The notes under the pieces are model-generated. The model did no database searches. It saw only the letters and a program-made list of their open reading frames with translations, and was not told the origin of the DNA. A stretch of 64,000 nt of DNA from assembly GCA_030272155.1 (NCBI GenBank), contig CP126196.1, positions 4,588,501 through 4,652,500 on the forward strand. The letters run 5' to 3'. Below are positions 4,542 through 64,000 of this stretch, piece by piece. Every line of letters starts with the position of its first letter. The first letter of the stretch is position 1. The position numbers and the translations under genes are program-made. Source of the stretch: Tetradesmus obliquus. Its lineage: Eukaryota; Chlorophyta; Chlorophyceae; Sphaeropleales; Scenedesmaceae.

Positions 4542-4577
4542 CTACAGCTTGCGCAGGATGAACAGGTTGTCCTTGTC
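4542..4577 (-). repeat. Decayed copy of fibrillin last-exon end
   Basis: About 36 bp closely match 4674-4709, the stop-codon end of the fibrillin gene. The copy lies downstream in the 3' flank. The rest of 3532-4673 shows no gene. Confidence 0.7.
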
Positions 4578-4673
4578 GCATGCAAAAGGCATCCAAACAC
4601 CATCTTTGTCTGAGGCCATGTATACAAACTGCAACTCACAAAAAGCCGCCAGACAGCTGCTGACAGTGTATTA

Positions 4674-7412
4674 CTACAGCTTGCGCAGGATGAACATGTT
4701 GTCCTTGTTGGTGTAGAACACCCTGAAGTCACCATCCACGTAGCTCATGCGCCAGTAGCCGCGCATCTGGCCGGCCTCAAACACCTGCAGGTGATCGCAC
4801 AGCAAACAGCACCAGTGAATGACAATTCAGCGTGCACCCAATCTGTTGGAAGCACGCTCAATACAGGAGCATGCATCAGAAGGCAGCCGCTATGACAGGT
4901 GTTGGTCATGCCAACCAGATGCATATGCTTGGGCAGCACCGCAGCACAGCAGCAGCACCACACACCTTTTCTGCTGCTTGGAAGGGCCCAACCTTCAGCA
5001 CCAGGTTTTGAACTCCAGGTCAACCCTGTCATCGCATGTGACGGCAAACTCGCCGCGCAGCACAGCACTATTAGCCGCCAAACAAACAAAACTACTTACT
5101 CCGCTGCCTGGAATGGCCCAACCTTCAGCACAACATGATTGTGCAAGGGTCCACCAAGCCACACACCTTTTCTGCTGCCTGGAGTGGCCCAACCTTCAGC
5201 ACCAGGTTTTTGAACTCCAGATCAACCCTGTCATCGCGCGCGACGGCATACTCGCCCCGCAGCCTTGCAGACACCAGGCCCAGGCTGCTCACATTGTAAT
5301 ACACACCCGGCTCTGCGGCAGGGAACTCCTGTCAGACATAACAAAGTAACATGTTAAGTGACAGGGTGTGGCAAGTTCAGGCCCAGGCTGCTCACGTTGT
5401 AGTACACACCCGGCTCCGCGGCAGGGAACTCCTGTGAGTCATAACAAAGTAACGTGTTGAGTAACAGGGTGTGGCAAGTTCAGGCTGATTGTTCTGCTCA
5501 CGTTGTAGTAAACGCCCGTCTCTGCGGCTGAAAAACTCCTGTTCGCCAACACATTGTGACATGTTATACAACTGGGCATGGCAAGTTCAAAGTAAAATTA
5601 TTTCGGCAGTTGCACATGCTGACGTTAGCCAACAAACAACAAATGGGCGTGCATTTTGATCAAGCTGTGACTTCACTGTTGAGGCGCGAATGCGTCCAAT
5701 GCAAGCATTGCCGTATTTGCACTAAGTATTTCGTAACAAAAATTGTATTATTTGTCGCGCACAACGAACAATTGTGAAAAACGGGAAATTATCGGCCACA
5801 TTGTCGATCAAAAACAGCGAAATTTGTCACATTTTCACTGTGTTTGCCGCCTCCGTGACGAAAAACTATCGCTTCAGGAAAAGTTCAGATATTATTGAGG
5901 TCTGTGACGAATAATTAGGGCACGAAAGACTTAGTGCAAATACGGTACTGGCACACACAGAGGTGCCGCATGTCCCCAGGACAGAGGGGCGCAAGGTGCG
6001 GGACTCAGCTGGCATGTGCGGCTCTGTAGGCTAAGCAGCTGTCAAATTACAGCAGCACAGGCGCAGCGCTTTCACCAGCCCAGCGCATCTGCTTGTGGCC
6101 CACACTAGGCCTCCAACAGGTTATTGTGGTCAGTTTGCTAGTCCCGCAATGCTGCACAATCAACTGCAGCTGGAAGCTGCATTGTGTGCACAATCAACTG
6201 CAGCTGGAAGCTGCATTGTGGCAGTTGTGCTGGACATGGCTGTGCGTTTCAGCTGTGACTTTGCTTTGTGCGCGCACCAGCACCACATATGTTGTTGACA
6301 GCTGCACAATCAGCAGCTGTAGGATATGGCTGCGAGTATAAGCTGTGCTTTGCTTTGTGCGCGCACCGGCACCACACATGCTGTTGACAGCTGCACAACT
6401 AGCAGCTGTAGGACATGGCTGCGCATATCAGCCGTGCTTCGCTGTGTGCTCCTACCTGCACCACATCTGTGATGAAGGGGCCAACCTTGCCTGAGCTGGT
6501 GCCTGCAAGCAGCAGCAGCAAGAGCAGCAGCAGCCAGCACGCATTATTGCATGCATGTGACGTTGTGCAAGGTGCTGTGGGCATATACATCACGGCAGCG
6601 GGCGGCGGTAACACCGCAGGTGGCTACATGTAAAACAACCCTTGAAAAGCATACCATGTTGATTCAATCATGCACTGGCAGTGCATGCTGGGCAAGAGCA
6701 CTGTTGGTTGATGCACCAACGGCCGAACGAACACCCTTGGCGACAGCTCAAAAGCCCAACCACATGTTCAGCTTTGCGGTTCATATCGCCTCCTAGTACA
6801 TTGCTAAGCACACCGTGTTGATCAAGCTGGCAGCTGCACTGCTGCTGCAAACTGCTACGCACCGTCCGATGTTGTGAACACCGTTGTCCACTTGCTGCCA
6901 GTGAGTGCACCCTGTTCTACCTTCACTGGCAGTTGCAGCGCCTCCAGCTGCTTCACTTTTGCCTGTACTGCCTCCCTAGTTGCTGCATCCAGGTCATGCC
7001 CATACTTGCTGCCTGACATGCGGATGATGTCCTGCTTGAGCTGCTGCGCTGCTGCTGCAGGCTTTGTTGCATCTGGCGCTGCCTGTGCTGCTGCCCGTAC
7101 ACGTACTGCTGCACTGCGGCAAGGCCTGCTGGAACAAAAGAGACAAGATTCATGGTTTTTCTTGGTTTAGGTAAATGTAAATGAACGCATCTAGCAACTC
7201 ATTAAGCTGCAGTGGCCGCAGGGAATGCAATGCATGTGATGCATGGATGCAGCGGGTGGAAGCAGAAGCTCCAACGTAGTGTGGTGCCTGCACTCAACAT
7301 GTGCAGCTGCAGCTGCCCACCTGCATGGTATGCATCCATGACTCCCAGCAGCTAGACGTGCTGGGGTTCTGCTGCTGGCACGTTGCAGACTGCTTTGCAC
7401 CTGCATGGACAT
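4674..7412 (-). CDS. Plastid lipid-associated protein (PAP/fibrillin family)
   Basis: Five exons, read 7412-7321, 7125-6863, 6502-6456, 5328-5167 and 4784-4674, join in phase to a 224-residue protein. PAP/fibrillins are plastid lipid-binding proteins of plastoglobules, thylakoids and stroma. Residues 1-~60 are Arg/Ser/Ala-rich, like a chloroplast transit peptide. Then come the family landmarks: a helix ending V-K-Q-L-E-A-L, the strand L-T-G-S-K-W-T-T-V-F-T-T-S, the motif S-S-G-K-V-G-P-F-I-T-D-V-V-Q, a beta-rich middle, and the C-terminal R-G-Y-W-R-M-S-Y-V-D-G-D-F-R-V with N-M-F-I-L at the end. Size fits a small fibrillin. The gene is divergent from 7711, with 298 bp between the ATGs. Exon ends are repeated in the introns (separate entries). 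The family is clear; the subgroup is not assigned. Confidence 0.88.
4964..5140 (-). repeat. Donor-side copies of fibrillin exon 4
   Basis: Two partial copies of the 3' end of exon 5167-5328: one at about 4964-5063 (near full, ~90% alike by eye) and a shorter one at about 5101-5137. The 4964 copy keeps the GTGTGT donor. They lie downstream of the true exon in the sense direction. Confidence 0.85.
5277..5550 (-). repeat. Acceptor-side array of fibrillin exon 4 (period ~103-107)
   Basis: The 5' end of exon 5167-5328 plus ~50 bp of upstream intron occurs three times, starting near 5277 (true exon), 5380 and 5488. The first two units are nearly identical over ~100 bp; the third is more diverged. 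Confidence 0.9.
6155..6470. repeat. Intronic tandem repeats next to fibrillin exon 3
   Basis: A 34-bp direct repeat occurs twice at 6155-6222. A ~90-bp unit then occurs about three times at 6230-6470, the last copy running into the donor end of exon 6456-6502. This looks like an older, more decayed donor-side array. Confidence 0.7.
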
Positions 7413-10981: not shown

Positions 10982-13900
10982 TTAGTCGGGCCCGCCGGGC
11001 GGCGGCTGCACCTCGGATGAGGATGCTCCCTTTGCTCCTTCGGTCGATGACGCAGAGCTTGATCCGCTGCCTCCGCCAAACACGCCCTCCAGTGCTGTTG
11101 CTGCAGAGTAGTATTTGAGTGTGCCTTCCAGCAGCGCCTTCTCTTCCTGCAGCCGCTCCATGGTCTTATTGACCTCCAGCAGGGTCTGCTGCGTGAGCCG
11201 GCTGTCCTGCTGGGGCAGAAATGAAAGAAACACAGAGGGAAACACACAGCAGGGGCGGGAGGAGTATTTGTCGATGGTTGTCATGGCTTTGTACATACAG
11301 AAACCAAGTACAGCAGCCGCTCCATGGTCTTTTATCATCTGTGAAGCACTGCACCAGCTTTGCCCAACACACAGCTTCACCTCCTAAGACACATCTAATT
11401 CAAAGCATCCTGTGAGACCCAGCGAGCAGCCTGCAGCTGCATGCAAACTCACCGAGAACGCGTGCGCGATCCAGTACGACAGCTGGCTCGGACTCGACTC
11501 GGTGAGCTCCATCGCCTCAATAACCTCGTCCTCAGCCTCCGAGTTGAGTGGCTCAGCAGCCGCTGAGGAGCCTCGGCTGGCGCCCGGGCGCAGCTTGGCT
11601 CGGGCAATCTTAAGGTGCAGGCGCAGCACGTTGCGGAACAGGTCTGCTACCTGCGCTGCCAGCGCCTTGGCCTGTCACGAAGAAAAAGTAGGTGAAAGCA
11701 GGTGAAGCAGGCAGGCAGGAGTCGGCAGGTGGGCAGAATAGTGAGTACAGATTGGTGCGGCGCTTGAGGTGCAGGCGCAGCACGGTGCGCAACAGGTCTG
11801 CTGCTTGCGGCTTACCCTCATCGCTACGTTCGTTATCCTCAGGCAGCAACTCCACCTGACACAACAGCTGTGCTCAACCCATTTTCTCTACTCCTGCCTC
11901 TAAACCGCAACCCTAGCTGCGTTCAACTAATCCCTGCGGCTTATCCCGTCCCTCTGATAATAACCTTCTAGCAGCACCTCCACCTTGCACACCAGCACTA
12001 AACCGCACTAAGCCCTGCTCTCCACCCCTGCCTAACCCTAGCTCCCAGTTAGCTCAACCCTGCGGCTTACCTCATCGCTCTGGTCGTCATCTTCAGGCAG
12101 CACCTCCACCTCACACACCAGCTGTGCTTAACCCTTTTTCTCGACTCCTGCCTCTAAACCCCAACCCTAGCTGCCAGTTAGCTAAACCCTGCGGCTTACC
12201 TCGTCGCTCTGATCATCATCTTCTGGCAGCACCTCCACCTCGCACACCAGCACTAAATCACACTAAGCCCTGCTCTCCACCCCAGCCTTTCAAACCCCAC
12301 CCCTAGCTCCAAGTTGGCTGAACCCTGCGGCTTACCTCATCGCTCTGGTCGTCATCTTCCGGCAGCACCTCCACCTCACACACCAGCACCGGCTGCTGCT
12401 TGACCACCTTTGTCACTTTAAAGCGCTCGATGCCTTTGTTAGTAACATACATGCGCCCGCTGGACTCGATCAGGAAGTCTTGGATCTCGAGTGTAGTGCC
12501 GATGCCCGAGATGCGGCCGACATCATCGGCGAAGCACATGCCGAAGCGCCGGGAGCCTGCACGTAACATACAATACAACAGGGTGTTACACAGGATAACA
12601 ACAGGATCAGGAATTGTGGATCCCAAGTGCACTGCCAATAGCTGACATGCAGTTGCTGTCGTCCACAAAGCACACGCCAAAGCCCCAACAGCCTGCAAGT
12701 AACATACTAATAACGTGTTACACGACAGGGAGCAACAAGAGGATGAGTTTTTGACTGTGTGTCTCAGAGACAGCTCAGCCAGGCGTTCCACAGCAGGATG
12801 GCACCGCGCGAGGCAAGTAGGCATCAAGGTGCAAGCTGCATGCAAGCTGCTGGAATGATGATGGCAAGAGCATGGCCAGTGCTGTTGCGTGAGTCCACAA
12901 GCCTCCGCATGTGCACGCAGCACATGGCAGGCACAGCGGCAGCGCAGTGCAACCGGCTTTTTAAAAAAATGCTGCTGCTGCTGCTGCCGGCTCACCTGCA
13001 AACGGCGAGTCCTCCTGAACCAAGCCCTCCTCAACCTTCTCTGCTCCCGCCAGCAGCGTGTTGAACAGCACGCGGTACCTGCGGGATCGTCATTTCATCA
13101 TTCTGTTATTATCATTGTTTAACAACAATTCAGGCAGCAGCATGTGGTGGAGTTTAATGATTATTGGTGTTGATTTGACTCCAACGGTTTTGGATGGTAT
13201 TGATGCTTGCCTTACATACAAGCCACGCAGCCGTGTGGCAGCAGCGCAGCCCAGGCCAGGCAGTGTTGGTGGCGCAGCAGTGCATGCGTGGTGCATCAAT
13301 CAGCCAGGCGCACGACACATGGAAGCAGTGCTGCAAAGTTGATGACGCTGCTCTGTACTGTGTTGCAGCAGAAAGGAGGCCAGAACACCAGGCGACATTG
13401 CAGTTGCGACAAGCTCGACAAGCAATGCAATGCAATGCAGTGTAGTGAGTGCTGCGGTACAGGAAGCCGTGCAGCGACGGACAATGAAGGTGTCTGTCCA
13501 CACATACAGCAGCACAGATGTAGAGGGAACGGGCGGTTGTGATTCCAGTTCGCTGTAGCACTGCACATGCTAGGGGCAAGAAAGTAGTAACTAGGCCACG
13601 CAAAACGCGTAGCCTACTTACTACTAAAATTTAGAGCATGAGGGCAGCTGCATGGACAAGGAGCCTGGGGTGTCCTGTGCTGAATGTGCAGGTGCATGTC
13701 CTCACAAGACGACACCAGTGCAGTGTGTCATGTTCATCATCTATGGTTTTGCTAATTCGTATCTCTTGCACTGCACTGTAGATGCCATGCCGCGTTTGAA
13801 GCTGTGTAGCTGTGCAGCAGCACAGCATCCAGTTCAACCACAACAGCTGCTGCTGTGCTGCACCAGCTCCACTACTACATCACAGGACGCACCTGGCCTC

Positions 13901-14787: not shown

Positions 14788-17700
14788 ATGGCAGTTTTGG
14801 ATTCTCCAGGCAGGATGCCTGGTGAGCTGCGCGGCTGCTGGCGACGGCTGCGTTTCCTTGCACGGTGCAGTTGATTCTGAGCCTTTTGCGCACTGGATGC
14901 AGACTCGCCTGCACTGGCGCGCTTCAAGAAGGTGCTGGAGTTTGCCTTCAAGCATGCAGTGCCGGGAATCGGCCTGCCTGCTGGTGCAGCCCTGGCGGTA
15001 AGTGCCCTCACTCTCCCGGCTTGACAGTACAGCCTGTAACCAGGCAGCTGCAGGACTGACATGAAATCACGCACTCTTTTTCCTGTTGCGCGCAGGTTAA
15101 GCTGCAGAGCATGTGGGCCACTGGCGAGCTTCAGCAGCTGCTGGTGCTGGCGCGGGAGACGACCTTGACATTCGACCTGGTGAGTAAATGCTAAGACAAG
15201 GCTTCAAGATCCAGCAAAACAGTATGTTCCAAGCATACAATACCAGCAGCTGCGCTACTGTTCACATGGCACCACAGCAGCAGCACCAGGAGCAGCAGCG
15301 GCAGCAGGGGTTTTTGCTGCATGCTGCTGCTGTCGCACATCGCACATCGCATTCAATATCTTGTCAAACGACCACCAGGCCGCCAGCATCACGCTTAGCT
15401 GCGCTCACCACCTTGCTGCTGCTGGTGCTACTGCTGCTGCTGCTGCTGCTGCAGTTCACTTTGGTTGCTGTGTGTGCTCTTGCTCTGGCAGCCGCGCTGG
15501 CCTGGCACGCGCTGCGCAAGCCATCCATTTACCTTGTGGACTACATTGCACAGCGCCCTGATGACAGGTGCGGCAGCAGCAGCAGCAGCAGCAGGGCAGA
15601 AAGTGCAGCAGCAGCAGCAGGCTAGACAGCGCAAGCGGAAGATCACGCAGCGAAGCAGGAGCAGCAGCCACCTGTGTATGCCAGCTGTGGCTGCAAGCGG
15701 ACTTCTTTGTGCAGGAAGGCAACATAGCTGGTGCCGCTATGGAAGCAGCAGCAGCAGCAGGGAAAAGGCAGCCTCACCAGCGCAGGGGTGGCAGCAGTGC
15801 ATGATGCAGCTGGCTGGCCGGCATCCAGCAGCTTGCAGGAACCCGTGTTTTGCTTGCGGAAATCTGGATTATGTGTTACAGGTCAGACCGCAGCTGAAAC
15901 ATCCTTCCTGCAAGCAACCCTGCAGGCGTCTTGTCAACTGCTGCTGCACCATGGACTGCGCGCCCGCCAGCCAGCCAGCCATCAACACCCTTGTCACTGT
16001 TGAATTCAATCGCTCCTCCTCCCCTTGCTCTGCTGCTGCTGCTGTTGCCGATCAATGTTCCTGCAAGCGCGTCCACCTTCAAGCCAAGCTACACATGCAT
16101 GCAAACAAGTGCAGCAGGAAGCACAGCAGGCTGGGCAATGAGCTGCTGCCGCCTGTCATGGACAATAGCCAGGCCTCATTGGTTTCATGCCCCTGTACCA
16201 ACATCAAGCAACCAAGCTTCGTCCTTGCTCTTTCTCTGCTGCTGCCGCCGCTACCGCCAACGGTGATGCATACACTGGCCAATTACTGCAAGCACCGCAA
16301 CTGGAAGCACAACTGGCTGGACAGCGAAGCCTATGCTGAGAACAGCCAGGTCTTCACGCCCGAGGCTGTTGACCTTCAGCGCAAATGCCACTGTTGCCAT
16401 GCTCTTGTAACCAACCTTGCTCTGTCTCTGCTGCTGCTGCTGCTGCTGCTGCCAATGTTGTATTTGTCACTTGCGCAGCTGGAAGCACAGCCGGCTGGAC
16501 AGCGAGGCATATGCCGAGAACAGCCAGGTGTTCACGCCAGAAGCTGTTGACTTCCAGCGCAAGGTGCTGTGGTTTGGCGGGCTGGGCAATGAGACCTACC
16601 TGCCGCCCTGGCTGGGCAACTATCCCCAGACCACCAGCATGGAGAAGGCCAAGCTGGAGTTTGACCTGGTCGTGGTCAAAGCCTGCGCGTGAGTGACGAT
16701 AACATATTTTTGAATACTTATGTGTATCACATGCAAAAGAAAGTAGCACATCTGCAGACCACCAGCAAGGAGAAGGCCAAGCTGGAGATTAACCTGGTGG
16801 TGGTCCTGCTTGTGATGGCCTGCTTGTGATGGCGTTTGACTGATGTTTGACTGCAGATGTTTGACTGCTTTTCAAAGTGATTTGCAGCGTGTTACATCAT
16901 ACGCCTGCACAGCAGCACACAGCTGGAGTATAAAATGTGGTAATCGTGCGGGGAGGTGACAGCGCGGCAGCAGCCATGGTCAAGTTCAGCGTGCCATTCG
17001 CCACCTACTGCAGCTGGAGTTAAGGCCCGACCATTTTGAGGATGCATCGTGCTGCAGCGACCTGTTGGAGACCGGTATGGCCCTGCCCAGGTGAACAGCT
17101 TGGTGTCAACTGCAGTCTCACATAAAAAACAATCTAACACCAAAAATGACTGTCATTCTGTCATTTCCGCCTCGCAGTGATCTCCTGGAGAAGACTGGCA
17201 TCCAGCCCGCCCAGGTGGGCATCCTGGTGGTCAACTGCAGCCTGTTCTGCCCCACCCCCAGCCTGTGCGCGCATATCATGAACCACTTCAAGATGCCCAA
17301 GAGCACCATCACATACAACCTGGGGGGCATGGGCTGCTCAGCCAGCCCCATCGCTGTGGACCTGGCCCGCCAGATGCTGGAGCTGTACCCCGACACGTAT
17401 GCGCTGGTGGTGTCCACCGAGAACATCACTCAGAACATGTACAAGGGCACGCAGCGCTCCATGCTCATCCCCAACGTGCTGTTCCGCGTGGGCGGCGCCG
17501 CCATGCTCATGACAAACAAGCGCAGCGAGGCGCGGTGAGTGCAGAGGTGGCGGGCGCGCTTGCAGGAAAGGCATGTCTGCTTGCAGGAAAGGAGAAGGCC
17601 TTGCAGGAAACAGCAGGATCTTGCAGGAAAGCGATGCCATAGTTGCTGCGCATCATGGCATGCTGTGTTTGTGGCAGCTGGCAGACGATCACCATGACAT

Positions 17701-17903
17701 GCAGCATCGCTGACAGCCCACTGCTGCTGCTGCTGTATCACATCTGCAGCCGCTCCAAGTACCGTCTGGACAGCGTGGTGCGCACAACGCTGTCTGGTGA
17801 CGACACCAGCTACAACTGCGTGATGGAGATGGAGGACAGCCTGGGCAACAGGGGCGTGAAGCTGAGCAAGGAGCTCATGAAGATTGCAGGTGCGATGCAT
17901 TGT

Positions 17904-17936
<33 letters not shown>

Positions 17937-20019
17937 GTCAAGCTGAGCAAGGAGCGCATGAAGATCGCAGGTGCAGATAGGAGAAAGATGTTGCTTCTTG
18001 CTTGGGAAGGGGGGTGTTGTTTAGTGATGGTGTTATTTGGTGGTGGTGGTGCTGCTGTATGGCGCTGAGCAAGGAGCTGATGAAAATTGCAGGTGCGTGT
18101 GTGCTGGGCGGTGCAGTTGCGTGTGGCGACTGGTGTTTGCTGCTGCTGCTGCTGCTGCATGAAGCTGAGCAAGGAGCTAATGAAGATCGCAGGTGCGTGT
18201 GGTCACTGGTGCAGGAAGGACAGCAGCTTGTGGGTTTGCTGTGCAGCAGTTGAGAACTTGCAGGGAACTGGGTCTAGCACAATGTTGTTATCCAACCGCT
18301 GGTTCTGCTGCTGCTGGGTCCGATGTCGCTTTGCTGCTGCAGGCAAGGCGCTGAAGGACAACATCACCAGCCTGGGCCCCCGCGTGCTGCCCATGAGCGA
18401 GCATGCGCTCTTCACACATTGTTATAACACTGTCACATCTGTTACTTTGGTTGTCACTTTCAGGCAAGGCGCTGAAGGACAACATCACCAGCCTGGGCCC
18501 CCGTGTGCTGCCCATGAGCGAGATGCTGGTGTTTGGCGCAAACATGGCTGCACGGAAGTTGCTGGGTATGAAGCTGGCGCCATACATCCCAGACTTCCAG
18601 GTGGCAGCACAGCACATCTGCATCCACACAGGTGAGACGACACTGCTGCTGCTACCTGCGTGTATATCGGTGGCTAAATTCATGATCTAGGGATGCACAT
18701 AATGCCGTACATTCCAGACTTCCAGGTGGCAGCACAGCACATCTGCATCCACACAGGTGCGACAGCGCTGCTGCTGCTGCCTGCATTTATAGTTTTTCAA
18801 TCCTAGTCATGATCTGTGGATGCACATTATGTCATACATCCCTGACTTCCAGGTGGCAGCGCAGCACATCCGCATTCACACAGGTCAGACGGCAGCACTG
18901 CTGCTACATGCGTTTGTATGTATGGTTGCTTTCATGACCTGGGCATGAAGCTGGCGCCGTACATCCCTGACTTCCAGGTGGCAGCACAGCACATCTGCAT
19001 CCACACAGGTGAGACGGCAACCCTGCTGGTGCCCTTGTTTGCTGTGTGACCTGAGCATTGGGAATGGTGATGCACATCAACGGCATCCACATAAAGCTGA
19101 TACTGCGCACTCAAACACCAATATCTGACGTGTCTTTGCTGCTGCCACATCAATGCAGGCGCGCGTGGCGTGATTGATGCCCATCCACACGGATCTGAGG
19201 CTGAGCACACAACCATTGATTCGACATGCTGACACATCTCTGTTTACTTTTGAATGCATGCAGGGGGCCGCGGCGTGATTGATGCCATCCAGAAGGAGCT
19301 GGGGCTCAGCAACGACTTCGTGGAGCCCTCCAGGGCAGCACTGTACCGCTACGGCAACGTCAGCAGCAGCAGCGTCTGGTGCGTGTTATGTTCGTGTTAC
19401 AACCGTGATATCTTTGTGTTACAACTGTGTTATACACCTAGCAATGCAGAGCAGGCTTCAGGTTTAGCCCTCCAGGGCGGCGCTGCACCGCTACGGCAAC
19501 GTCAGCAGCAGCAGCAGCGTCTGGTGCCCGGCTGGCATGCTGGCGGCTCTAGCATGCTGCCTTGGCTGCATTAGGTGTGGCATGATACGATCAGCTGCCA
19601 GTTGTAGTAAAGTGCTAAAATGCCAACATCAGCTGCTATGGTTACCGGCGGATTGCTTGCCTTGTGATGCTTACCTGTGTGCTGTGTGTGGAAGCCGTCA
19701 GCTGACTCTGGGAGCGTTGCTGCTGCTGCTACTGCTGCTGCTGCTGCCGCAGGTATGTGCTGGCGTTCATTGAGCACTTCCGGGGCGTGACCAAGGGCGA
19801 CAAGGTGCTGCAGCTGGCCTTTGGCAGCGGCTTCAAGTGCAACAGCGCGGTGTGGGTGGCCAACAAGACCTTCAAGGAGCAGTGCTACGCGTGGGAGGTG
19901 AGGCGGCATCTCAAATATGTGTTAATATTTGTGTTACGCAGTGATCAAAAAGTGTTCGACCTGCAGTTTTTGTTTCAGCATGGATATGCTGGAGGTGAAG
20001 CTGCTGGTGCTGCTGCTGG

Positions 20020-28168: not shown

Positions 28169-28282
28169 TCAGCCCCTGCGCACGCCCTTGCCTGCTGCCG
28201 TGCCGTATACAATCAGGTTGGGCACGATCTCCCGCACCAGGTCAGCAGGCAGCGCAAAGTTCACGCCGCTGCCACGGCCCTG

Positions 28283-28327
<45 letters not shown>

Positions 28328-29102: not shown

Positions 29103-29164
<62 letters not shown>

Positions 29165-35640: not shown

Positions 35641-35857
35641 AGGGCTGTGGACGCTGCAAAACTTTGCGCGCCCGCTGCGCATCAGCCTTGCACTGGCGCT
35701 GGCGCCTGCCTTTGACAAGGCCATCACAGGGCTCGGGGAGAGGCTGGGCATCGACAAGAAGTGGGCGTTTGGCATCTTTTTGGTGTGCATGGGTGCAGTG
35801 ACAACGGTGACGCTGTTTGGGACAATCTACCTGCTGGGTGGCTTCCCTCCAAGCTAA
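32387..35857 (+). CDS. Conserved plastid membrane protein, unknown function (DUF1279/FAM210-like?)
   Basis: Exons 32387-32687, 33075-33129, 34878-35005 and 35643-35857 join in phase to 232 residues. The N-terminal ~75 residues look like a transit peptide with a poly-Ser linker. Then comes R-G-F-W-G-S-V-K-Y-F-F-V-G and a hydrophobic domain: a span around Y-G-F-I-S-N-L-N-Y-G-T-A-L-G-A-A-W-I, then A-P-G-Q-W-K-V-F-L-A-F-Y-A-G-L-W, then R-P-L-R, and a last span F-G-I-F-L-V-C-M-G-A-V. The fold resembles small DUF1279-type membrane proteins, but I am unsure of that family. The start has no upstream in-frame exon evidence. Exons 2-4 all have copied ends, and intron 2 is 1.7 kb, mostly repeats. It is head-to-head with the Deg5-like gene. 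Confidence 0.8.
33145..33830 (+). repeat. Exon 2 copies mixed with a 33-bp minisatellite
   Basis: A 33-bp unit containing AAGCTTGCTGTAAGCTTGC occurs three times at 33145-33243, and shorter variants run to ~33830. Within it lie three donor-side copies of exon 33075-33129, near 33297-33350, 33449-33494 and 33572-33622. The first two keep a GT donor; the last has lost it. Confidence 0.92.
34330..34800 (+). repeat. Acceptor-side array of exon 3 (about five copies)
   Basis: The first ~45 bp of exon 34878-35005 recur near 34345, 34457, 34540, 34640 and 34725. The 34457 and 34640 copies are close and keep CAG; the others are decayed. A longer unit of ~185 bp (34457/34540 repeated as 34640/34725) is visible, so this is a two-level repeat. 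Confidence 0.85.
35070..35125 (+). repeat. Donor-side copy of exon 3
   Basis: About 50 bp match the end of exon 34878-35005 and its GTGCGT donor almost exactly. Confidence 0.9.
35415..35600 (+). repeat. Acceptor-side array of exon 4 (two extra copies)
   Basis: The first ~65-70 bp of exon 35643-35857, each with a CTG/CCG run and CAG acceptor, recur at about 35423 and 35523. They are nearly identical to the true start. Confidence 0.93.
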
Positions 35858-46388: not shown

Positions 46389-46465
<77 letters not shown>

Positions 46466-46874
46466 GCAGGCAACGTGTACAGGCCACACATTGATGGCGC
46501 CTGGCCAGGCAGTGGACTGGATGGCAACGGGCACTACGTCTTTGACGCGTACGGTGCGCTTTGTTGCCTTTTCTGCACAGTTTGTAACCTTGTTGCCTTT
46601 TTGCACAGTCCTGTAAAGTGCCTGTATCTGTGAAGTGCAGTGAACCAATCATCAAATGTGCGCAACTTTGCATGACAAGTAGGCCAGCTGTTTTGTCAGA
46701 GGCTGTGTGATGGATGGCCACTAGCAGTATGTTCGATGCCTACGGCGCGCTTGTCCAAATGCGTATGTTTAGGTTTGTACAACAAACCAAGCCATTGTGT
46801 ACATGCAAGTTTGCATGACATGTAGCTGAGCTTCTTCTGGACAGAGGATTCCCTGCGTGCATGTGGGAACCCGC

Positions 46875-46937
<63 letters not shown>

Positions 46938-47696
46938 AGGTGACCGCTGGAGCCGGCTGACGTTCCTGGTGTACCTCAACGATGACTTTGAGGGCGGCGC
47001 CACCACCTACTACACCGCAAGCACAGAGCAGGTGTGTACAACAGCAGGCATGCAGCCGGGCAACGTGATGGTCTTCCCGCACGGCGGCAGCCTGGATGCA
47101 CATGGCTTGTTCAACATGCAACTGACTAACAGACACTGTGTACACATGTGCTCACTTGCAGGACGGCTGCTTGCATGCGCCGGGTGCAGCCGGGGTGTAT
47201 GCTTGTCTGCATATCGATTGACTGCCATGTCTGCATACTTACGCCTGCAGGAGGGCTGCCTGGATGCACGCGGTGTGCAGCCGGTGACAGGCAACGTGAT
47301 GGTCTTCCCGCACGGCGGCAGCCAGCATGCGCATGGCTTGGCGTGCTTTTTACTCACTTATTGTGCACATGTGATCACTTGCAGCAGGGCTGCCTCGATG
47401 CGCTTGGACGACGCAACAAGGTGTTTGAGTACACAGCCTGGTTCCATACGTCTGCTGATTTATGCCTGCAGGAGGGCTGCCTGGATGCGCGCGGCGTGCA
47501 GCCGGTGACTGGCAACGTGATGGTCTTCCCGCATGGCGGCACACTCGGGAGCTTGGTGCACGAGGGCAGCGCGGTGCTTCAGGGAGCGAAGTATGTTATT
47601 AGGACGGACGTGCTGTACATGAAGGCGCAGGAGGGCGGGCGGCGGCAGCAGCAGCAGCAGCAGCAGCAGCAGGCTCGGAAGAAGCAGCGGCGGTAG
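44636..47696 (+). CDS. 2OG-Fe(II) oxygenase, prolyl-4-hydroxylase-like
   Basis: Exons 44636-45320, 45604-46230, 46470-46553, 46940-47031 and 47472-47696 join in phase to 570 residues. The ATG lies in a good context (GCCATGG), and the frame upstream lacks a clear start. Residues ~1-230 are basic and rich in Gln/Ala with a 13-15 Gln run. The catalytic domain holds H444-x-D446 (R-P-H-I-D-G), then T-F-L-V-Y-L-N-D-D-F-E-G-G-A-T, F-P-H-G-G, distal His526 (V-H-E-G-S) and Lys536 (A-K-Y-V-I-R-T-D-V-L-Y). The 10-residue His-Lys spacing matches prolyl 4-hydroxylases, where Lys binds 2-oxoglutarate. The tail is poly-Gln and basic (A-R-K-K-Q-R-R). No signal peptide, so cytosolic or nuclear; substrate unknown. 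Poly-Gln/Ala inserts also interrupt exon 2. Confidence 0.87.
46390..46463 (+). repeat. (CTG)~24 run before oxygenase exon 3
   Basis: Uninterrupted CTG run ending just before TTGCAG, the acceptor of exon 46470-46553. A short copy of that exon's end is at ~46732-46755. Confidence 0.95.
46876..46939 (+). repeat. (CTG)~20 run forming the exon 4 acceptor
   Basis: Uninterrupted CTG run ending directly in the CAG acceptor of exon 46940-47031. Confidence 0.95.
47032..47420 (+). repeat. Acceptor-side array of oxygenase exon 5
   Basis: Copies of the first part of exon 47472-47696 lie at ~47045-47105 (middle part, joined to exon 4 without an acceptor), ~47160-47195 (decayed), 47251-47335 (close, with CAG acceptor in phase) and ~47383-47410 (short). 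The copies that reach it diverge just after the F-P-H-G-G codons. Confidence 0.88.
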
Positions 47697-48616: not shown

Positions 48617-48648
<32 letters not shown>

Positions 48649-50815: not shown

Positions 50816-50848
<33 letters not shown>

Positions 50849-55417: not shown

Positions 55418-58400
55418 ATGACAGGCTTTGCAGCAGCGCAAGACACGGCCAGCGTGTTGGACGTGGTGGTGCAGGATGCAGCAGCACCTGCCGCTGTGCC
55501 CTGCAAGGTCCCTGAAGCAGCACCAGCAGCTCCTGCAGGACCGGATTCAGCAGCAGCGGACGAGGAGGATGAGATGCTGTTGCAGACAGGGTGGCACACT
55601 GCGCGCTGCGCGCTGTCTCTGCCTGAGGCTCACGCAACCATCAAGGTTCCTGCAAAGCCCACTCCCTGGCGCATGCTGCTGGCGTTTGCAGGATGCGGCA
55701 CCATCATCTCTGTCGGATACATGTGAGCAAAGTTTATATAAGCAGCACCACCAGCAGTGTGGACAGGAGCAGGAAACTGGACTAGGGCAATACAAGGGCT
55801 ACAGCAGCGGACAGCCGAGGATGCTGTGAGCACAGTGGGTACCCGGCAGCCCCAGCTGAGGGCAATGACGCCTGCATCAGGGCAGTACAAGGGCTAACAG
55901 CAGTAGACCATAGTAAAAATAGTTCTCCTGGAAGCCATATCTTGTGGCATTGGAACCGTGCCTCACCTTGTGGAAAGACGGACAGCAGGGGATGCTGCCA
56001 GTCCTGGACCGGCAGCTCCTGCAGGACCACACAACGTGTCTTGTGCTTCTGGCTCTTACCCTCATGCCCGGCAGGCACTGCTGTGCCGTATGCTGCCACC
56101 CGCTCGCTGCATCCAACAGTGCCTGCTTGCGCTGCATCACCTGGCCCCACGCTTGCAGCCATCTAGCACCTCTGTAGCCTCCTGACGCCACCTGCTGCTG
56201 CATCCATGCTGCTGCTCTCACCTGTTCCTGCAGGGACCCCGGCAACTGGGCCACAGGCCTGGCAGGTGGTGCACGCTTCGGCTACAGTCTGCTGTTTGTC
56301 ATCCTGCTGAGCAGCATTGCAGCCATGTTTTTGCAGCACCTGGCGCTAAAGCTGGGCGTGGCCAGCGGCAGGGACCTGGCGCAGGCCTGCAGGGACGCCT
56401 ACCCAAGGTGCGTATGGCTGGTGCCTTGTACTAACTTCTCCTGCAGCGCTGTGCAGTCGGCTGGGCATGTAGCACACATCGCGTGGGCTTGTGTGCAGTT
56501 GCCCCTGTGCTGCACCACTTGTGTGGCCGTGTTTGTGCGTCACATCACATTTCAACTTGCTCTCCTGCCTGTTACTCCGCACATGCTGTGCGCAGGTGGG
56601 TCAACATCCCGCTGTGGATCATGGCCGAGATCGCCATCTGCGCGTGTGACCTGGCGGAGGTCATCGGCGCTGCCGTGGCGCTGCAGCTGCTGTTTGGCAT
56701 GCCGCTGTGGGCTGGCGTGCTGGTCACGATCGCTGACGTGGCGCTGGTGATGCTGCTGGAGGGACGCGGCTTCAGGTGGCTGGAGGGCTTTGTTATCCTG
56801 CTCATCCTGGTCATCTTCTCCTGGTGAGTGCTCTCTGCTGTTACGCGGAGGCAGATTTTTTTTACTGTTGAACATCGTATGGCAGCAGCTCAAGGTTGTA
56901 GTGTAAGCTGGCTGGGGTATTTTGTCATCCTGCTCATCCTGGTCATCTTCTCCTGGTGAGCGGTTGTTTTGAATTTGATTTTGTGCACTATTAACACTGT
57001 TAGGTATGGGAGGTGTGAAAGAAGGCAGTTGTCACTTCCTTGTTTGGCAGCAGCAAGGGCCAGGGTGTGTTTTGACTGCTGATGTGGCGCTGGTGATGCT
57101 GCTGGAGGGGCAGCTTTGTGTACGAGATGGCGCTGGCGCAGATGGCCTGCCACCTGGTTTCAACCGCCCTACTCTGCCTGCTACCTCCGCTTGCGGCTGC
57201 ACCTGTTGTTTGCAACTTTCTGTACGAGATAGCGCCGGCGCTGTTTCAGCACCTGTTCTTTCAAAAGTGCTGTTCAGGCTGCAATAAACAATCCTGGTGC
57301 TGCGCGCTGTGCCTGCTGCTGCAGCTTCGTGTACGAGATGGCGCTGGCGCAGCCGGCGTGGCCGGACGTGGGCCGCGGCCTGGTGCCCAGCCGATCTGTC
57401 ACCTGTTCTGCCATCCGCTAAACTCCTTACGCTTCTACTGCCTGCTACCTTCTCTGCTCTGCCTTTGTTGCAGCTTTGTGTACGAGATGGCGCTGGCGCA
57501 GCCGGCCTGGCTGGACGTGGGCCGCGGCCTGGTGCCCAGCCGCGAGCTGTTCACCAACCCCGACATGCTGTACATCGCCATAGGCATCATGGGCGCAACC
57601 GTCATGCCGCACAACCTGTGAGTATGTGTATGTGATTATGTTGAGGTGATGTTGTACAAGCAGGTGGTTTGCGCTGTTTGGTTGCGGTGTGGCACTGCTG
57701 TACATCACCATCGGCATCATGGGCGCAGCAGTCATGCCGCACAACCTGCGAGTGTGTATATGTACTGTGTTTTCTGTGCTCGGCAGGTAGTGTGTGCGCT
57801 GCTCCTGTGCGCTGTTTTTTTGCAGGCTGCTGTGGTCACCTGTATTTGGCACTAATCCATACTTGCATGCATTTGCGACAGCAGCACTGCTGTCACATCG
57901 CTTCTGCACACCGTGTGTTCTTTGTGGCTTGTGTTTTGTGTGCACAGCTACCTGCACTTGGCCGTCATGCAGGCGCGTGTTGTACAACTGACGCGTGATG
58001 CACAGCCGTGTGATATTGTGTTGTACAACGCGGGCTGGCCTGTGCACATAAGTATCTGCACTCTGCCGTCATCCAGACGCGCGCCTACGATTGCAGCCCG
58101 CAGGGCCGCATAGCATGCCTGGCAGCTGTATGTAGCTGCCTCACAGCGCGTGTGTTAAATGTCTTTTGTGCTCTGTTCACAGCTACCTTCACTCAGCCGT
58201 CATCCAGACGCGCGCCTACGACCGCAGCCCGCAGGACCGCAGCGCGTGGTGCGCATTGTGTGCAAACACCTGCACAGCTCCTCACACAGTGCGTGTTCTG
58301 TCTGCGTGGTGCTGCATGCTGTCTCTGCAGGTACCTGTACTCGGCCGTGATCCAGACGCGCGCCTACGACCGCAGCCCGCAGGGCCGCATAGCATGCCTG

Positions 58401-61229
58401 GCAGCTGTATGTAGCTGCCTCACAGCGCGTGTGCTGTATGTATCTTGTGCTCTGTTCACAGCTACCTTCACTCAGCCGTCATCCAGACGCGCACCTACGA
58501 CCGCAGCCCGCAGGGCGGCAGCGTGTGTGCAAACACCTGCACAGCTCCTCACACAGTGCGTGTTCTGTCTGCTTTGTGCTGCATGCTGTCTGCAGCTACC
58601 TGCACTCGGCCGTGATCCAGACGCGCGCCTACGACCACAGCCCGCAGGGCCGCAGCGTGTGTTGCGCGTTGTGCGCAAACACCTGCGCAGCTCCTCACAC
58701 AGTGTGTGTTCTGTCTGCTTGTGCTGCATGCCGTCTCTGCAGCTACCTGCACTCAGCCGTGATCCAGACGCGCGCCTATGACCGCAGCCCGCAGGGCCGC
58801 AGCGCGGCCATCCGCTACGGCACGCTGGACTCCTCCTTCAGCCTGCTGTTTGCGTTCCTGATCAATGCGAGCATCCTCATCCTGTCGGGCGCGGCCTTCT
58901 ACTATGGCACACCCCAGCACAGGTGCGCGCACATGCAGTTGTGTGCAGTGCTGATCAGTGCAAACGTCTATATCTTGTTTGGTGCAGTGTCCCAACGCGG
59001 CATGCCGCAGCACAGGCAGGGATGGCGTGGACATCAGCGGCGCCCACAAGCTGCTGTCTGTGCTGTCCAAAGCTTTATTGCTCTGTTCCATCACCTGCGA
59101 TGCCGTGCAGCACTGTCTCACCGATTGCCGTCATCCCACACTATTGTATCAATTGCAGGGAGGGCGTGGACATCAGTGACACCTACAAGCGTGTGTCTAT
59201 GCTGTTCAGTTGTTGCACTTTCCATCAACTGGGTCGCTCTTTGTCATCACCTTTACTTCACCTTATTGTGTCATGCAGGGAGGGCGTGGACATCAGCGAT
59301 GCGTACAAGCTGCTGTCGCCCAGCCTGGGCGCGCGCGGCGCGAGCATAATCTTTGCGCTGGCGCTGCTGGCCAGCGGCCAGAACAGCACAGTGACCGGCA
59401 CGCTGGCTGGGCAAGTCGTGATGGAGGGCTTCCTGCAGGTGGGGCTGTTGAAGGGGTTTAACGCAAAGTATGTACAGTTGTTTGTGTGTGTTTACTGCTT
59501 TTGGGGTTGTTCTGAGCCTGCATCATCTTTGCGCTGGCGCTGCTGGCCAGCGGCCAGAACAGCACCGTGACCGGCACATTAGCTGGGCAGGTCGTGATGG
59601 AGGGCTTCCTGCAGGTGGGGCTGTTGAAGGGTTTAACGCAAAGTATCGCACAGTTATTTGTGTGTGTTTATGGCTTTTGGGGTTGTTGTGAGCCTGCATC
59701 ATCTTTGCGCTGGCGCTGCTGGCCAGCGGCCAGAACAGCACCGTGACCGGCACATTAGCTGGGCAGGTCGTGATGGAGGGCTTCCTGCAGGTGGGGCTGT
59801 TGAAGGGGTTTAACGCAAAGTATCGCACAGTTGTTTGTGTGTGTTTATGGCTTTTGGGGTTGTTCTGAGCCTGCATCATCTTTGCGCTGGCGCTGCTGGC
59901 CAGCGGCCAGAACAGCACCGTGACCGGCAGGCACAGTAGCTGGGCAGGTCGTGATGGAGGGCTTCCTGCAGGTGCGGCTGTTGGAGGGTCTACAGTAGAA
60001 GCTGCTATGGTAAGCGTGTTTCATTGAATCTGAGGTTGTGGCAGGCCTTCTATCATCTTTGCGCTGGCGCTGCTGGCCAGCGGCCAGAACAGCACCGTGA
60101 CCGGGACACTAGCTGGGCAGGTCGTGATGGAGGGCTTCTTGCAGGTGGGCCATGTTGAGAATTTATTGCAACAATGTTTATTATTGCAACAATGTTTTGC
60201 ATGCGTTGAGTTTTCAGGCGAAGATGAGCCCACTGGTTTCTGCAGAATTATTTTGTTCGGGATGACACCTGCGGGTTACAGCAGGTGTGGCATCCGTGGC
60301 CCTTGCCGTTCTGCTTACTTCCGCTGCTGCTGCCGCTGCTGCCGCTGCGGCTCAGATGAATCGCTGCTGCTGCTGCTGCTGCTGCAGCAGCAGCTCAAAT
60401 GAACATGAAGCATGCAATGCGGATGCTGCTGACGCGCGCATGTGCCATCCTGCTGACTGTTGCTGCTGTTGCTGCACTGCAGATGAAGATGAAGCCTGTC
60501 ATGCGGAGGCTGCTGACGCGCGCGCTGGCCGTCATCCCCGCTGTCATCGTTGCTGCGGTGATGGGTGACAAGGCAGTGGGGCAACTGCTCGTCATTTCAC
60601 AGGTGGGGCGGCATGCATTCATGCATGCGTTGCAACACTGCGCAGTAGTTTCAGGCATGGTGCCAGATGATGCGCTGTTGAGAAGGGGCGCTGTTCATCG
60701 CTATTGAGTGCTTGAGCAACCAAGGCAGCAGCTTCAGCTGGCAGCTGTTGACCAAATCGCAACTCAGGCAAGTTGCATGTCAACGCCTCTGCGCCATCGT
60801 GGCGGGCACTAATGTGTGTTCGTGTTTGTTGCTGCATGTGCCGTGCTTTCCTCTCTGCTGCATCACCGTGCAGGTGGTGCTGTCCATGCAGCTGTCGTTC
60901 GCGGTGCTGCCGCTGGTGCACTTCACCAGCAGCGCCAAGCTCGCCAGCCTGTTGTGCAGAACCTGTGTAGTAACGTGACAATTGTTCACATGCATTTCTT
61001 TGTGTTGCCGCCTTGTGTGTGTCTGCAGGTGGTACTGTCCATGCAGCTGTCTTTTGCGGTGCTGCCGCTGGTGCACTTCACCAGCAGCGCCAAGTTCACG
61101 GGGCGCTACGCCAACAGCCTGGCCACCAGCATCGCAGCCGTGCTGACGGCGCTGCTGATCGCAGGGCTCAACGGCTACCTGCTGGTGTCCGTGCTGAGGG
61201 ACCCTGGCAGCCTCAGTGTGCACAAGTAA
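55418..61229 (+). CDS. NRAMP: NRAMP-family divalent metal transporter
   Basis: Eight exons (55418-55722, 56234-56407, 56596-56823, 57474-57617, 58743-58922, 59279-59438, 60483-60602, 61029-61229) join in phase to 503 residues, the usual NRAMP length. NRAMPs move Mn2+, Fe2+ and related ions with protons. An ~85-residue hydrophilic N-terminus precedes the membrane domain. Metal-site residues are present: Asp103 and Asn106 in D-P-G-N-W-A-T (helix 1), Ala277 and Met280 in G-A-T-V-M-P-H-N (helix 6). Other signatures: M-A-E-I-A-I...[17 protein letters not shown], and [16 protein letters not shown]. About 11 hydrophobic spans. In helix 3, a Cys-Ala-Cys replaces the more common Ile-Ala-Thr before Asp. 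Copies of exon ends fill most introns. Whether it is a plasma-membrane or vacuolar type cannot be told. Confidence 0.94.
56905..56960 (+). repeat. Donor-side copy of NRAMP exon 3
   Basis: About 50 bp match the end of exon 56596-56823 and its GTGAG donor almost exactly. Confidence 0.9.
57077..57400 (+). repeat. Acceptor-side array of NRAMP exon 4, first copy chimeric
   Basis: The start of exon 57474-57617 recurs at ~57113 (close), ~57217 (decayed) and ~57324 (close over ~70 bp). The copy at 57113 is joined to ~34 bp of mid-exon-3 sequence at 57077-57110. Confidence 0.9.
57690..57760 (+). repeat. Donor-side copy of NRAMP exon 4
   Basis: About 60 bp match the end of exon 57474-57617 with the metal-site Met codon. 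The donor GT is changed to GC (CCTGCGAG). Confidence 0.9.
57945..58700 (+). repeat. Acceptor-side array of NRAMP exon 5 (six extra copies)
   Basis: The first ~65 bp of exon 58743-58922 plus ~70 bp of intron recur starting near 57950, 58045, 58180, 58330, 58463 and 58596. The period is mostly 130-150 bp. Most keep an AG just before the copied exon start; none has a donor. Confidence 0.95.
59005..59215 (+). repeat. Acceptor-side array of NRAMP exon 6 (two extra copies)
   Basis: The first ~40-45 bp of exon 59279-59438 recur near 59015 and 59155, the second with a CAG acceptor. Confidence 0.9.
59514..60150 (+). repeat. Donor-side array of NRAMP exon 6, 176-177 bp period
   Basis: Four extra copies of the last ~110 bp of exon 59279-59438, each with its GTGGG or GTGCG donor and the following intron, start near 59514, 59690, 59867 and 60040. 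The first three units are almost identical, so they are recent. Confidence 0.96.
60390..60440 (+). repeat. Acceptor-side copy of NRAMP exon 7
   Basis: About 50 bp resemble the start of exon 60483-60602, preceded by a CAG run. Confidence 0.82.
60870..60960 (+). repeat. Acceptor-side copy of NRAMP exon 8
   Basis: About 75 bp match the start of exon 61029-61229 with a CAG acceptor, then diverge. Changes are mostly silent third-position ones. Confidence 0.92.
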
Positions 61230-61369: not shown

Positions 61370-61500
61370 GGGCTGTGCTGACAGCGCTGCTGATCGCGGG
61401 GCTGAATGGCTACCTGCTGGTGTCTGTGCTGAGGGACCCTGGCAGCCTGAGCATTCACAGACAGCTCTGCTGCCGTGCAGTGCAGGTTGTCTGTGGTGAG
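61370..61500 (+). repeat. Copy of the NRAMP last-exon end in the 3' flank
   Basis: About 90 bp match the end of exon 61029-61229. The stop codon is not kept (CACAGACAG replaces CACAAGTAA). Fainter remnants lie near 61260-61295 and 61640-61690. Confidence 0.88.
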
Positions 61501-61689
61501 GGCGGTACTGGTGGCGCAGCTGCTTGCGGGCTGCATGTGTACTGGCTAGTGTCTTTTGGAAGGGCCCGCCTGCGTCAGCATGCATGCCTAAGCAGCTGCA
61601 TGCCTGCAGCGCAGCTGCAAGGACGGGTAGGGGTGCTCAGCGCATACCTGCTTGCGTCCTACTGAAGGAGACAGGCAGCTTGAGCGAAC

Positions 61690-64000
61690 ACGTGTAGCTC
61701 TGCATAGCTGAAAAGTTGGCATCTCTGGTCAGCTGTGCGGGGAAGAAGGTGTGTAGCGATGAAGGGCGCAGAGGGGTTCGTTTGCGTCGTTACTGACATG
61801 GGTTGTCTTTGGGCGTGGCTTTGGGCGTGGTGAGTTCTGCCAGTTTTCGCAGTGATGGCACTGACTGCTGAAGTGGCACGCACAGGCAGACCTGTGTGCG
61901 ATTGATTTATCGTCCTAGGTGGTATGCGGCAGTGCATGGCTCAGGCTTTGCATGACGCGCACACATTTTGTTGTTCTTACGCGCGGCATCTGGGAGCGGG
62001 GATGCAGGATTGAGCTCTGGAGGTGGTGTTTTCACATGTTTGCGGCCTTGCATGTTTGCGGCCTTGCATGCATGGCGTTGTTTGCTGGCTGTGCATTGGG
62101 AGTGATGCAGAGGTTCCCACTTGGTAGCTGCCAGTCACTAATTGCTTTGAGATTGATCGCTACTGCACTTGCTCTTCTTATCTCCTGCTTCATGTGTGCA
62201 TATGCCTGGCACATCACGCAGTCATGCAGGCATGCTGTTTTGGCGCGCTTAGCTCTTGTGCTGAGTGCCTTGGGCAGTTTTATGTCCTGGGAGCGGCACC
62301 AGTAGCAATGCACTTGGGACAGAGATACGTTTGGTTGGCGGACGGATGGTATCTCACCACATCTGCTTCAGGTGTTCTTAATGGCATGATGATGTTGCAG
62401 GGCAAGGTTTGTCTTTCCAGATGTCATGCGTCCACTGCACTCTCATACTTACTCTGCGTTGATGGCTCTACCTCTTTCACATTCAGTTCAGGAGTTCGGC
62501 GCTTCGGCAAAGGCGGCTTGCACGTTTGCATCAACCCCTGCTTTGCTGCTCTGATGCCGCGCTCTGCTGTCGGGGGCATCACATCGTCCTTTTACACGAT
62601 TGCATGCCTGTACATGCCGGATTTGGTGCAGGCCGGCTTACATAGGGTGGGTCCCTGTTCTCCCGGGGACGTTGTCAAGCTTCCATCTTCCCCACCTGTG
62701 CCATGATGTTCGATATATAATCTGGGGCGGGTGTGGAAAGGTGTGCAGGGATATGCCGGGTTGGTGCTGTGCCACTGCTGCAATGAAGCAAATTTGGTGT
62801 TGAAGTCCTGGCTGTTGCGCTAATTCTTTCAGCGCGCTGCTGAAGATACTCCCACATGTGCTTGGCGGCCTGCTGCCGAAGTTGCTGCTACCTTTTTGCC
62901 ACAGCTGAAGGTCAAAACTTTGAAGATTGGGCGCATGGCTTTGCAGATTGTCGTTCGCAACGCCGTCTGCCTTGCTGACGTATGCATACGTGATGCAGCG
63001 AGCCAGTTGCTGCGGTTTGTGTGCGCTGCTGTTTGTGTGTGCGGTACGACTGGCACATGCGTGCATGTGCGTGAAGGTGCATGAAGGCCGGTGTACCTGA
63101 CTACGGCGTTTACACACAGAAGTACAGAGGAGTGCTTGTACATGCTGCTGTCATCTACGTGTCCATTGTGTGATGTGGTCTACTGCAGCAGCCCATCAGC
63201 TGATGCACTACTTGTGCAGTTGTGAGAGCTGGGCGTGGCGCCGCTCTTGTGAAGCGGAGGCTACAAAAAGTGGTTCTTGAGCAGAACCAGTGTAACGGGT
63301 CTGCTTCCGCGCGTACCCATATAAGGAAAGTTGCCGAATTGCATTCATTACAAGCATAAGTATCATGCAACATAATGCGCACTCACATGGCAAGAAGTGG
63401 TCCCCCGAAAGGCCACCATGGCTGCTGAGCCTCAGATTAGCATGTGCAGCTCCTGCTTCTGCTCCTATGTCGTCTAGTATTATTCATACGGCTGGAACCT
63501 TATGGGCAGGGTAACGCTCGTGCTACACATCACGCGTGCTGTGTGTTGCAGATGGCATCTGGCTCAGCCGCGCTGGCCGAGCCTGGCAGATCTTTCATCA
63601 AGGCTTGCAAAGTTGGAGAGTCGGTAGGGGTACTAGGCGGACACGATTACAGTGCAGAGTGCATGCACTGCCAGCGTCAAGCTGGGCCAAGCGCTAAAGA
63701 ACAACCCAAATGTATGAAGTTTCGACGCCTCTGTCATCATGGTATAAGCCTTCAGCCTACAGCCGTTGGCTATGCCTTCTATCAACCATACCCCTCTTGA
63801 GCATATGTGCGCTGCTGCCATGCCATGGCCATGGCCGCAACTGTCAGGCCTGCGCCGACCACTAGTAGGGCGTTGTCAGTGCAAATGCATCTAGTCAGCA
63901 GCTGCAAGTGGATCCAGTGACCCCTGACAACCACCTGCTGAGCAGTAGCTTACTGTGGAAGTTCCACACGAATCCCTGCAAGCTTCTATGCGCAGACATT
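61690..64000. other. 3' end of window, no gene firmly seen
   Basis: A frame after a CAG acceptor at 63549-63551 (63552-63800, + strand, starting M-A-S-G-S-A-A-L-A-E-P-G) could be an exon of a gene running off the window, but it shows no known domain. Confidence 0.35.

Follow-up and report, generated by a model that had tools for sequence, protein, structure and literature searches.

The RdRp gene of potato contains a tandem duplication of intron-exon structure, and the same account describes a second tandem duplication, of 83 bp, inside an intron of that gene (Ma, Lan and Niu 2016, PMC4974935). In Drosophila, introns have been described as gained via exon duplication around a proto-splice site (PMC2891723), and the Dscam arrays were reported, in the account consulted, without signs of gene conversion (PMC3236188). 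According to Table 1 of PMC5966456, the mean intron of T. obliquus UTEX393 is 462 bp, compared with 230-302 bp in three relatives and 270 bp in Chlamydomonas. Four further strains of the species, FACHB-14, 276, 417 and 1235, have been sequenced (PMC12571836). In this study, a window of 64,000 nucleotides of Tetradesmus obliquus (C6:4588501-4652500; genome of 104.66 Mb in 17 contigs) was analysed, and here, as in the potato gene, the tandem segment crosses a splice junction and the splice signals are copied too (PMC4974935).

A sequence-only reading of the window had held that introns of nine of its genes contain diverged copies of their own exon ends, which are called copies or decoys below. 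Such exon-end copies were confirmed in eight genes (fibrillin-like, LON, KCS, Deg-like, plastid-membrane-protein-like, P4H-like, NRAMP and a gene at 23-25 kb, taken to be the one that the reading had left unrecognised), and the CAP/Cys-rich gene showed local repeat pairs only. The Pfam matches of NRAMP, KCS and the LON domain were above cut-off, that of Trypsin_2 (Deg) was below cut-off only, and for the fibrillin, P4H, plastid and 24-kb genes no single exon piece matched a Pfam family. The names fibrillin, P4H-like and plastid-membrane-protein are therefore putative labels, in part those of the sequence-only reading.

The exon models of the NRAMP gene were made from homology and splice signals independently of the deposited protein. 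Over all 401 residues queried, the joined exons are 100% identical to the deposited T. obliquus protein OEZ86_004166, which contains no decoy, and a protein of a relative, from a EukProt entry and with 89% identity to the query over its length, is unbroken as well. In NRAMP, therefore, the outermost splice sites are the real ones, as had been proposed. Its features are as follows.

56596..56823, + strand, NRAMP true exon (WVNIPLW...LVIFS), homology/splice model, in deposited protein
56906..56960, + strand, donor-side copy, repeating the 3' end of exon 56596-56823
57110..57149, + strand, acceptor-side copy of exon 57474-57617
57320..57393, + strand, acceptor-side copy of exon 57474-57617
57474..57617, + strand, NRAMP true exon (FVYEM...MPHN)
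57696..57763, + strand, donor-side copy of exon 57474-57617
58052..58742, + strand, array of acceptor-side copies ahead of exon 58743, with exon start and intron tail
58743..58922, + strand, NRAMP true exon
59016..59058, + strand, acceptor-side copy of exon 59279
59279..59438, + strand, NRAMP true exon (EGVDIS...EGFLQ)
59520..60158, + strand, four donor-side copies in an array, period about 176
60483..60602, + strand, NRAMP true exon (MKMKPV...VISQ), with acceptor-side copy 60367-60439
60869..60939, + strand, acceptor-side copy of exon 61029
61029..61225, + strand, NRAMP last true exon (VVLSMQ...SVHK), in deposited protein
61375..61448, + strand, copy of exon 61029 (3' part); in the block compared, all differences fall at third positions

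It was also observed that 57078-57109 is a copy of a piece inside exon 56596-56823 joined directly to the acceptor-side copy 57110-57149, a compound rearrangement.

In the KCS gene, the exon start at 17749 was placed by hand for an in-frame join, the automatic start at 17685 being wrong.

16479..16688, + strand, KCS true exon, with acceptor-side copy 16296-16384 and donor-side copy 16755-16805
17749..17889, + strand, KCS true exon, with donor-side copies 17935-17974, about 18064-18101, and 18160-18197
18340..18401, + strand, acceptor-side copy of exon 18464, homology ending at the acceptor
18464..18631, + strand, KCS true exon (KALKDNITS...ICIHTG)
18704..19015, + strand, three donor-side copies of exon 18464-18631
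19264..19378, + strand, KCS true exon (GRGVIDAIQ...SSSSVW)
19466..19527, + strand, donor-side copy of exon 19264-19378, matched in the C15 paralogue by one whose spacer is similar

The donor-side copies of exon 17749-17889 (window 17857-18200) lie at offsets of 81, 204 and 303 nt, all divisible by three, and the frame is open through all three, in an ORF that runs through the intron, so that use of a decoy donor would add 27, 68 or 101 residues in frame. The remaining genes carry the following exons and copies.

5167..5328, - strand, fibrillin-like exon, with donor-side copies 4964-5061 and 5100-5131
5378-5433 and 5494-5528, - strand, acceptor-side copies of fibrillin-like exon 5167-5328
12336..12556, - strand, LON-domain true exon, with donor-side copies 12198-12253, 12069-12122, 11949-11998 and 11816-11868
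24597..24816, + strand, exon of the unrecognised gene, with donor-side copy 25024-25086
27754-27797 and 27576-27614 (with a donor score slightly below 10), - strand, donor-side copies of Deg-like exon 28184-28279
28184..28279, - strand, Deg-like exon, with acceptor-side copies 28394-28441 and 28529-28576
30703..30852, - strand, Deg-like exon, with donor-side copies 30456-30528 and 30233-30305
35643..35837, + strand, plastid-membrane-protein-like exon, with acceptor-side copies 35421-35491 and 35523-35594
47472..47692, + strand, P4H-like exon, with acceptor-side copies 47249-47320, 47160-47193 and 47047-47089

Self-comparison of the window (BLASTN, E<=1e-6, dust) gave 78 matches, 77 of which were direct and local with a largest offset of 706; the remaining classes held no far direct match, no local inverted match and one far inverted match. 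Beyond the window, eight random 10-kb stretches contained 21 direct and no inverted repeats, 30 kinase loci contained 46 direct repeats (four seen twice, in the overlapping loci L032 and L036) and no inverted ones, and local direct repeats were present in five of the six mitochondrial-carrier stretches examined. They were absent from the 3.2 kb examined of the C16 NRAMP paralogue. Local repeats covered 16.5% of the window, compared with a mean of 3.3% in the eight 10-kb samples, two of which had none. Moreover, exon-end copies were also present in kinase and carrier genes and in KCS paralogues on other chromosomes, so that the scope first given to the phenomenon, that of the window, was too small; such copies occur throughout the genome and are particularly dense in the window.

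Several other repeats were observed. Two mitochondrial-carrier genes, L067 (C17:667000-670200) and L068 (C16:3700000-3704000), held very dense local arrays, and one Pfam match in L068 was itself a decoy. Near the plastid-membrane-protein gene, 33144-33835 formed an array of an 11-mer like TAAGCTTGCTT, with higher-order periods of 33 and 99 nt. CAG/CTG tracts were abundant in intron-like and exon-like stretches (for example 28284-29163 and 46364-46937), and TGTTAT/TGTTAC-like words, possibly a common intron motif, were seen in several introns (window KCS, L058 and L063). Two ubiquitin loci (C13:2851786-2855479 and C5:4477553-4480240) gave many short exon-piece matches at a spacing of about 500 nt, and both may be intron-split polyubiquitin genes.

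The side on which the copies lie was determined for 81 exons built from homology seeds (13 from KCS and NRAMP in the window, 25 from KCS paralogues, 28 from kinases and 15 from mitochondrial carriers), with 45-nt probes and a search within 1.2 kb. Seed 2661 of L068 (itself a copy), ends with a splice score below 10 and low-complexity probes were dropped, and exons shorter than 100 nt were left out of the direction count and those shorter than 60 nt out of the intron-flank test. The automatic exon ends are approximate, and some kinase acceptors fall inside the seed. Donor ends had a downstream copy in 20 of 69 cases and an upstream copy in 0 of 69, and acceptor ends had an upstream copy in 17 of 64 and a downstream copy in 0 of 63. 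In total, 37 of 133 ends had a copy on the side that the sequence-only reading had described (donor ends copied downstream, acceptor ends upstream), against 0 of 132 on the opposite side. Control probes found copies for 1 of 88 exon middles, 15 of 132 intron probes and 11 of 4850 probes of unrelated DNA. Outside the window, 21 of 108 exon ends had a copy on the expected side and none of 107 had one on the wrong side, and copies were found for 0 of 72 exon-middle and 11 of 107 intron probes, the excess of exon ends over intron probes giving p=0.08 there and p=0.001 with the window included.

What is copied is thus one exon end, as the single exon-middle hit indicates, and not a whole exon with both splice sites. 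The rule of sides points to no mechanism beyond this, since any junction-crossing tandem duplication must leave the same pattern: the copy that remains attached to the body of the exon is the true one, the cut-off copy therefore lies on the intron side, and no special mechanism is needed. Furthermore, intron probes also find copies, and the duplications therefore have no tie to splice sites. Copies of exon ends make up a subset of the tandem copies, over-represented at least partly through the slow change of the real exon. A duplicated exon middle alone would alter the protein.

The repeat unit has a narrow size. In a search that reached 1.2 kb where the sequence allowed, and in which copies closer than about 30 nt were undetectable, the nearest copy lay 81-235 nt from the true site (median 136.5, n=36), and successive spacings had a median of 134.5 nt (n=74, central 80% 103-177); repeat offsets in the random stretches were of the same order. 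We know of no splicing reason for a size of about 135 nt. Among 42 nearest copies, six stopped short of the splice site and 36 reached it; of the latter, the intron flank was included fully in 11, partially in two and fully by length only in three (L062 3073 and two in L068, all left out of a stricter set of 13). The other 20 had no intron homology left, though third positions differed by only 16-17%, which plain tandem duplication of that age would not predict. Introns of duplicated units had an indel about every 25 nt; homology that ends at AG/GT may therefore mark the end of constraint. Splice-linked copying of exons only, with homology ending at AG/GT, was considered and rejected as a general account, since 13-16 of the 36 nearest copies include intron; it may apply to the 20 that have no intron homology.

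The copies are of many ages, as had been supposed, and their exon part appears to have changed more slowly than their intron. In the 13 pairs with alignable intron, the intron differed at 169 of 944 sites (17.9%) with 38 gaps, and the exon copy differed at 27 of 202 third positions (13.4%) and 18 of 403 other positions (4.5%), with 3 gaps against the 12.2 expected if only the copy were free to change (p=0.002). The full set of 16 pairs gave 3 gaps against 15.3 expected (p=0.00017), the stricter 13 giving the weaker statistics. In 11 of 13 pairs (p=0.02), and in 14 of the full 16 (p=0.0027), non-third positions had diverged less than half as far as the intron. Third-position divergence was not significantly below intron divergence (10/16 pairs, p=0.1), and silent sites alone therefore do not show homogenisation.

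In the wider set, with low-complexity matches excluded, differences at third and other positions numbered 229:126 for 74 decoys at 40 exon ends, and with these matches included the ratio was 1.72 (bootstrap 1.30-2.19); a sign test across exon ends gave 24 vs 13 (p=0.10), and the 23 ends with a single decoy gave 68:58, nearer neutral. Changes private to one decoy comprised 49 silent, 53 missense and 0 nonsense changes, where 73% would be expected to change the amino acid (p=7e-6), and the 270 changed codons of 64 decoys included no stop (p=0.013, taking 100 amino-acid changes as random). At multi-copy ends, the changes that separate the true exon from all its decoys fell at 18 third and 2 other positions. 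GT/AG was kept in 49 of 60 decoys and lost in 11, and splicing therefore seems not to be what protects them. The count of 60 and the ratio of 1.72 include CAG-tract matches (L012 and L035), which were excluded from the exon-versus-all-decoys, spacing/intron-clock and decoy-private analyses. Frameshifted copies were found (C8_2810 and the third NRAMP donor copy), and the copy offset was a multiple of three in only 11 of 36 cases.

The KCS paralogues showed how exons and copies relate between genes. In most comparisons these paralogues agree at about one half to three quarters of their third positions, like long-separated genes. The C8 gene contains an array in which the first part of one exon occurs four times, with 88-98% identity among the copies and 78-86% to C6. 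The intron tails of this array are mutually 55-70% alike, and the C8_2677 tail is nearer to the C6 tail (0.73) than to other C8 tails (0.56-0.67), with tail-tree bootstraps of 67-84 on about 60 nt. The decoys of exon Ee in C6 and C15 have spacers that resemble each other (none of 3000 random windows scored as well), and each is nearer to its own exon (3/50 and 6/57 differences) than to the other decoy (12/50); a third paralogue, L058, has a decoy at exon Ee with an unrelated spacer. Both cases, the C8 array and exon Ee of C6 and C15, are the pattern that repeated exchange filtered by selection would leave, on short sequences, and intron pieces might instead have moved between paralogues. The likeness is not strictly within a gene: the exon start of the C17 paralogue resembles the C8 exon (0.98) no less closely than C8's own copies do. 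Exons Ec, Ed and Ee are followed by junctions that recur in the C6, C8 and C15 paralogues, and in C17a, C1 and C3 some exons are fused. Intron gain by AGGT exon duplication, which would make the intron from duplicated exon between the two sites, does not fit, since the introns contain intron sequence as well as truncated exon ends. As a separate observation, L062 (C8, 3073) and L052 (C17, 2413), on different chromosomes, share 98% identity over the first 59 nt of the same KCS exon, which is far above the identity at their other third positions and is accompanied by unrelated intron tails, as though a short tract had undergone conversion from one chromosome to another.

Taken together, recurrent tandem duplication across splice junctions combined with exchange between exon and copy, under selection on the real exon, is judged somewhat better than an even bet. 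The duplication part had already been proposed and is well borne out by the direct, local, rule-side copies. The recurrent mutation would be a local tandem duplication of about 135 nt (81-235 nt), a size that the copies themselves display, perhaps by replication slippage on nucleosome- or Okazaki-sized pieces, as a guess from unit length. Duplications that cross a junction would survive because the copy joined to the exon body still gives the full exon, and the other products would be removed by selection. The exon end and its copies may then keep swapping sequence, through either unequal exchange or gene conversion of short tracts, with selection acting on the real exon, so that the copies would decay more slowly than their intron; exchange is the likeliest reason for this slow decay. 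Four-gamete conflicts, the direct mark of exchange, were few, at 2 of 11 informative site pairs, and the excess of silent changes private to decoys is explained by exchange only if exchange is frequent. GC-biased exchange was rejected, differences between true exon and decoy at third positions being equal both ways (93 vs 90). It is conceivable, though doubtful, that intronic copies form a long-lived donor pool that rewrites exon ends, with exon pieces evolving in concert as small multi-copy families.

The simplest rival is the passive account of the sequence-only reading, in which junction-crossing duplicates decay neutrally and exon ends stand out only through the slow real exon. It accommodates the geometry and spacing of the duplications, the intron probes with local copies (15/132), the non-significant exon-end excess outside the window (p=0.08), the 11 of 60 lost splice dinucleotides and the nearly neutral 68:58 of single-decoy ends. 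We hold it to be unlikely, even if somewhat short of improbable, since amino-acid changes and indels in the copies fall below what the intron of the same duplication predicts (non-third divergence under half the intron value in 11/13 and 14/16 pairs; 3 indels against 12.2) and decoy-private changes are too silent. Neutral decay and lengthening alone is accordingly not upheld, and no evidence was found for new cassette exons arising from copies, which it had also foreseen. A weak coding constraint of the copies' own, if they were translated as alternative exon parts, would account for the 229:126 excess at third positions, the lack of stops among the 270 changed codons and the in-frame KCS copies at 81, 204 and 303 nt in the intron ORF; this use is improbable, since a partial copy that has a single splice site cannot stand in for the exon in frame, few offsets (11/36) are multiples of three, GT/AG is lost in 11 of 60, frameshifted copies exist and the deposited NRAMP protein contains no decoy.

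A marginally less probable source is a diverged haplotype or relative, if unequal exchange between divergent chromosomes had united exon ends differing mainly at silent sites. The 18 third to 2 other positions separating true exons from all their decoys and the greater divergence of introns than exons agree with it, but silent differences of 13-17% would require extreme diversity, and a 437-bp piece of NRAMP had no second copy in the assembly apart from a 72% paralogue, although a haploid assembly would hide one. Mobile elements, whether introners or other transposons, are very improbable carriers: NRAMP and KCS DNA matched in the whole genome only themselves, paralogues and simple-repeat tracts (with 40 of 222 candidates scored in one search), so that the dispersed copies named beforehand as a sign of such an origin were not found for these two genes; the window contained no far direct repeat, and nothing was found in favour. 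Duplication with exchange remains our preferred reading.

These findings bear on several questions. With copies at about one fifth of the exon ends sampled outside the window and at nearly fixed spacing, T. obliquus offers a natural system for watching intron growth, and its rows of decoy sites offer one for asking how splicing ignores them. Junction-crossing duplication could help to explain the long introns of strain UTEX393. If exons and copies exchange sequence, introns would be both a source of coding mutations and a store of repair templates. In addition, exon-end copies are a warning for gene finders and short-read assemblers.

In the literature searched, which lay outside most subscription journals, no description of genome-wide exon-end copies in introns was found among the matches listed. 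The potato RdRp case, as described, concerns one gene and a new intron, whereas in T. obliquus about one fifth of sampled exon ends outside the window are involved and existing introns are lengthened (PMC4974935). The Drosophila gains likewise draw intron sequence from local tandem duplication, but in them, by that account, the duplicated AG/GY makes a new intron (PMC2891723), whereas the T. obliquus intron pre-exists. Tandem exon duplications and mutually exclusive exons likewise place adjacent copies of exon sequence in one gene (PMC9013439; Dscam, PMC3236188), but the T. obliquus copies are exon ends with one splice site. Introners, too, generate intron sequence on a genome scale (PMC9860276), although their copies are described as dispersed and mobile and those found in T. 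obliquus are local. In conclusion, single junction-crossing duplications are known, and the genome-wide habit of T. obliquus is mostly explained as this ordinary type of mutation, apparently unusually frequent and of narrow size.
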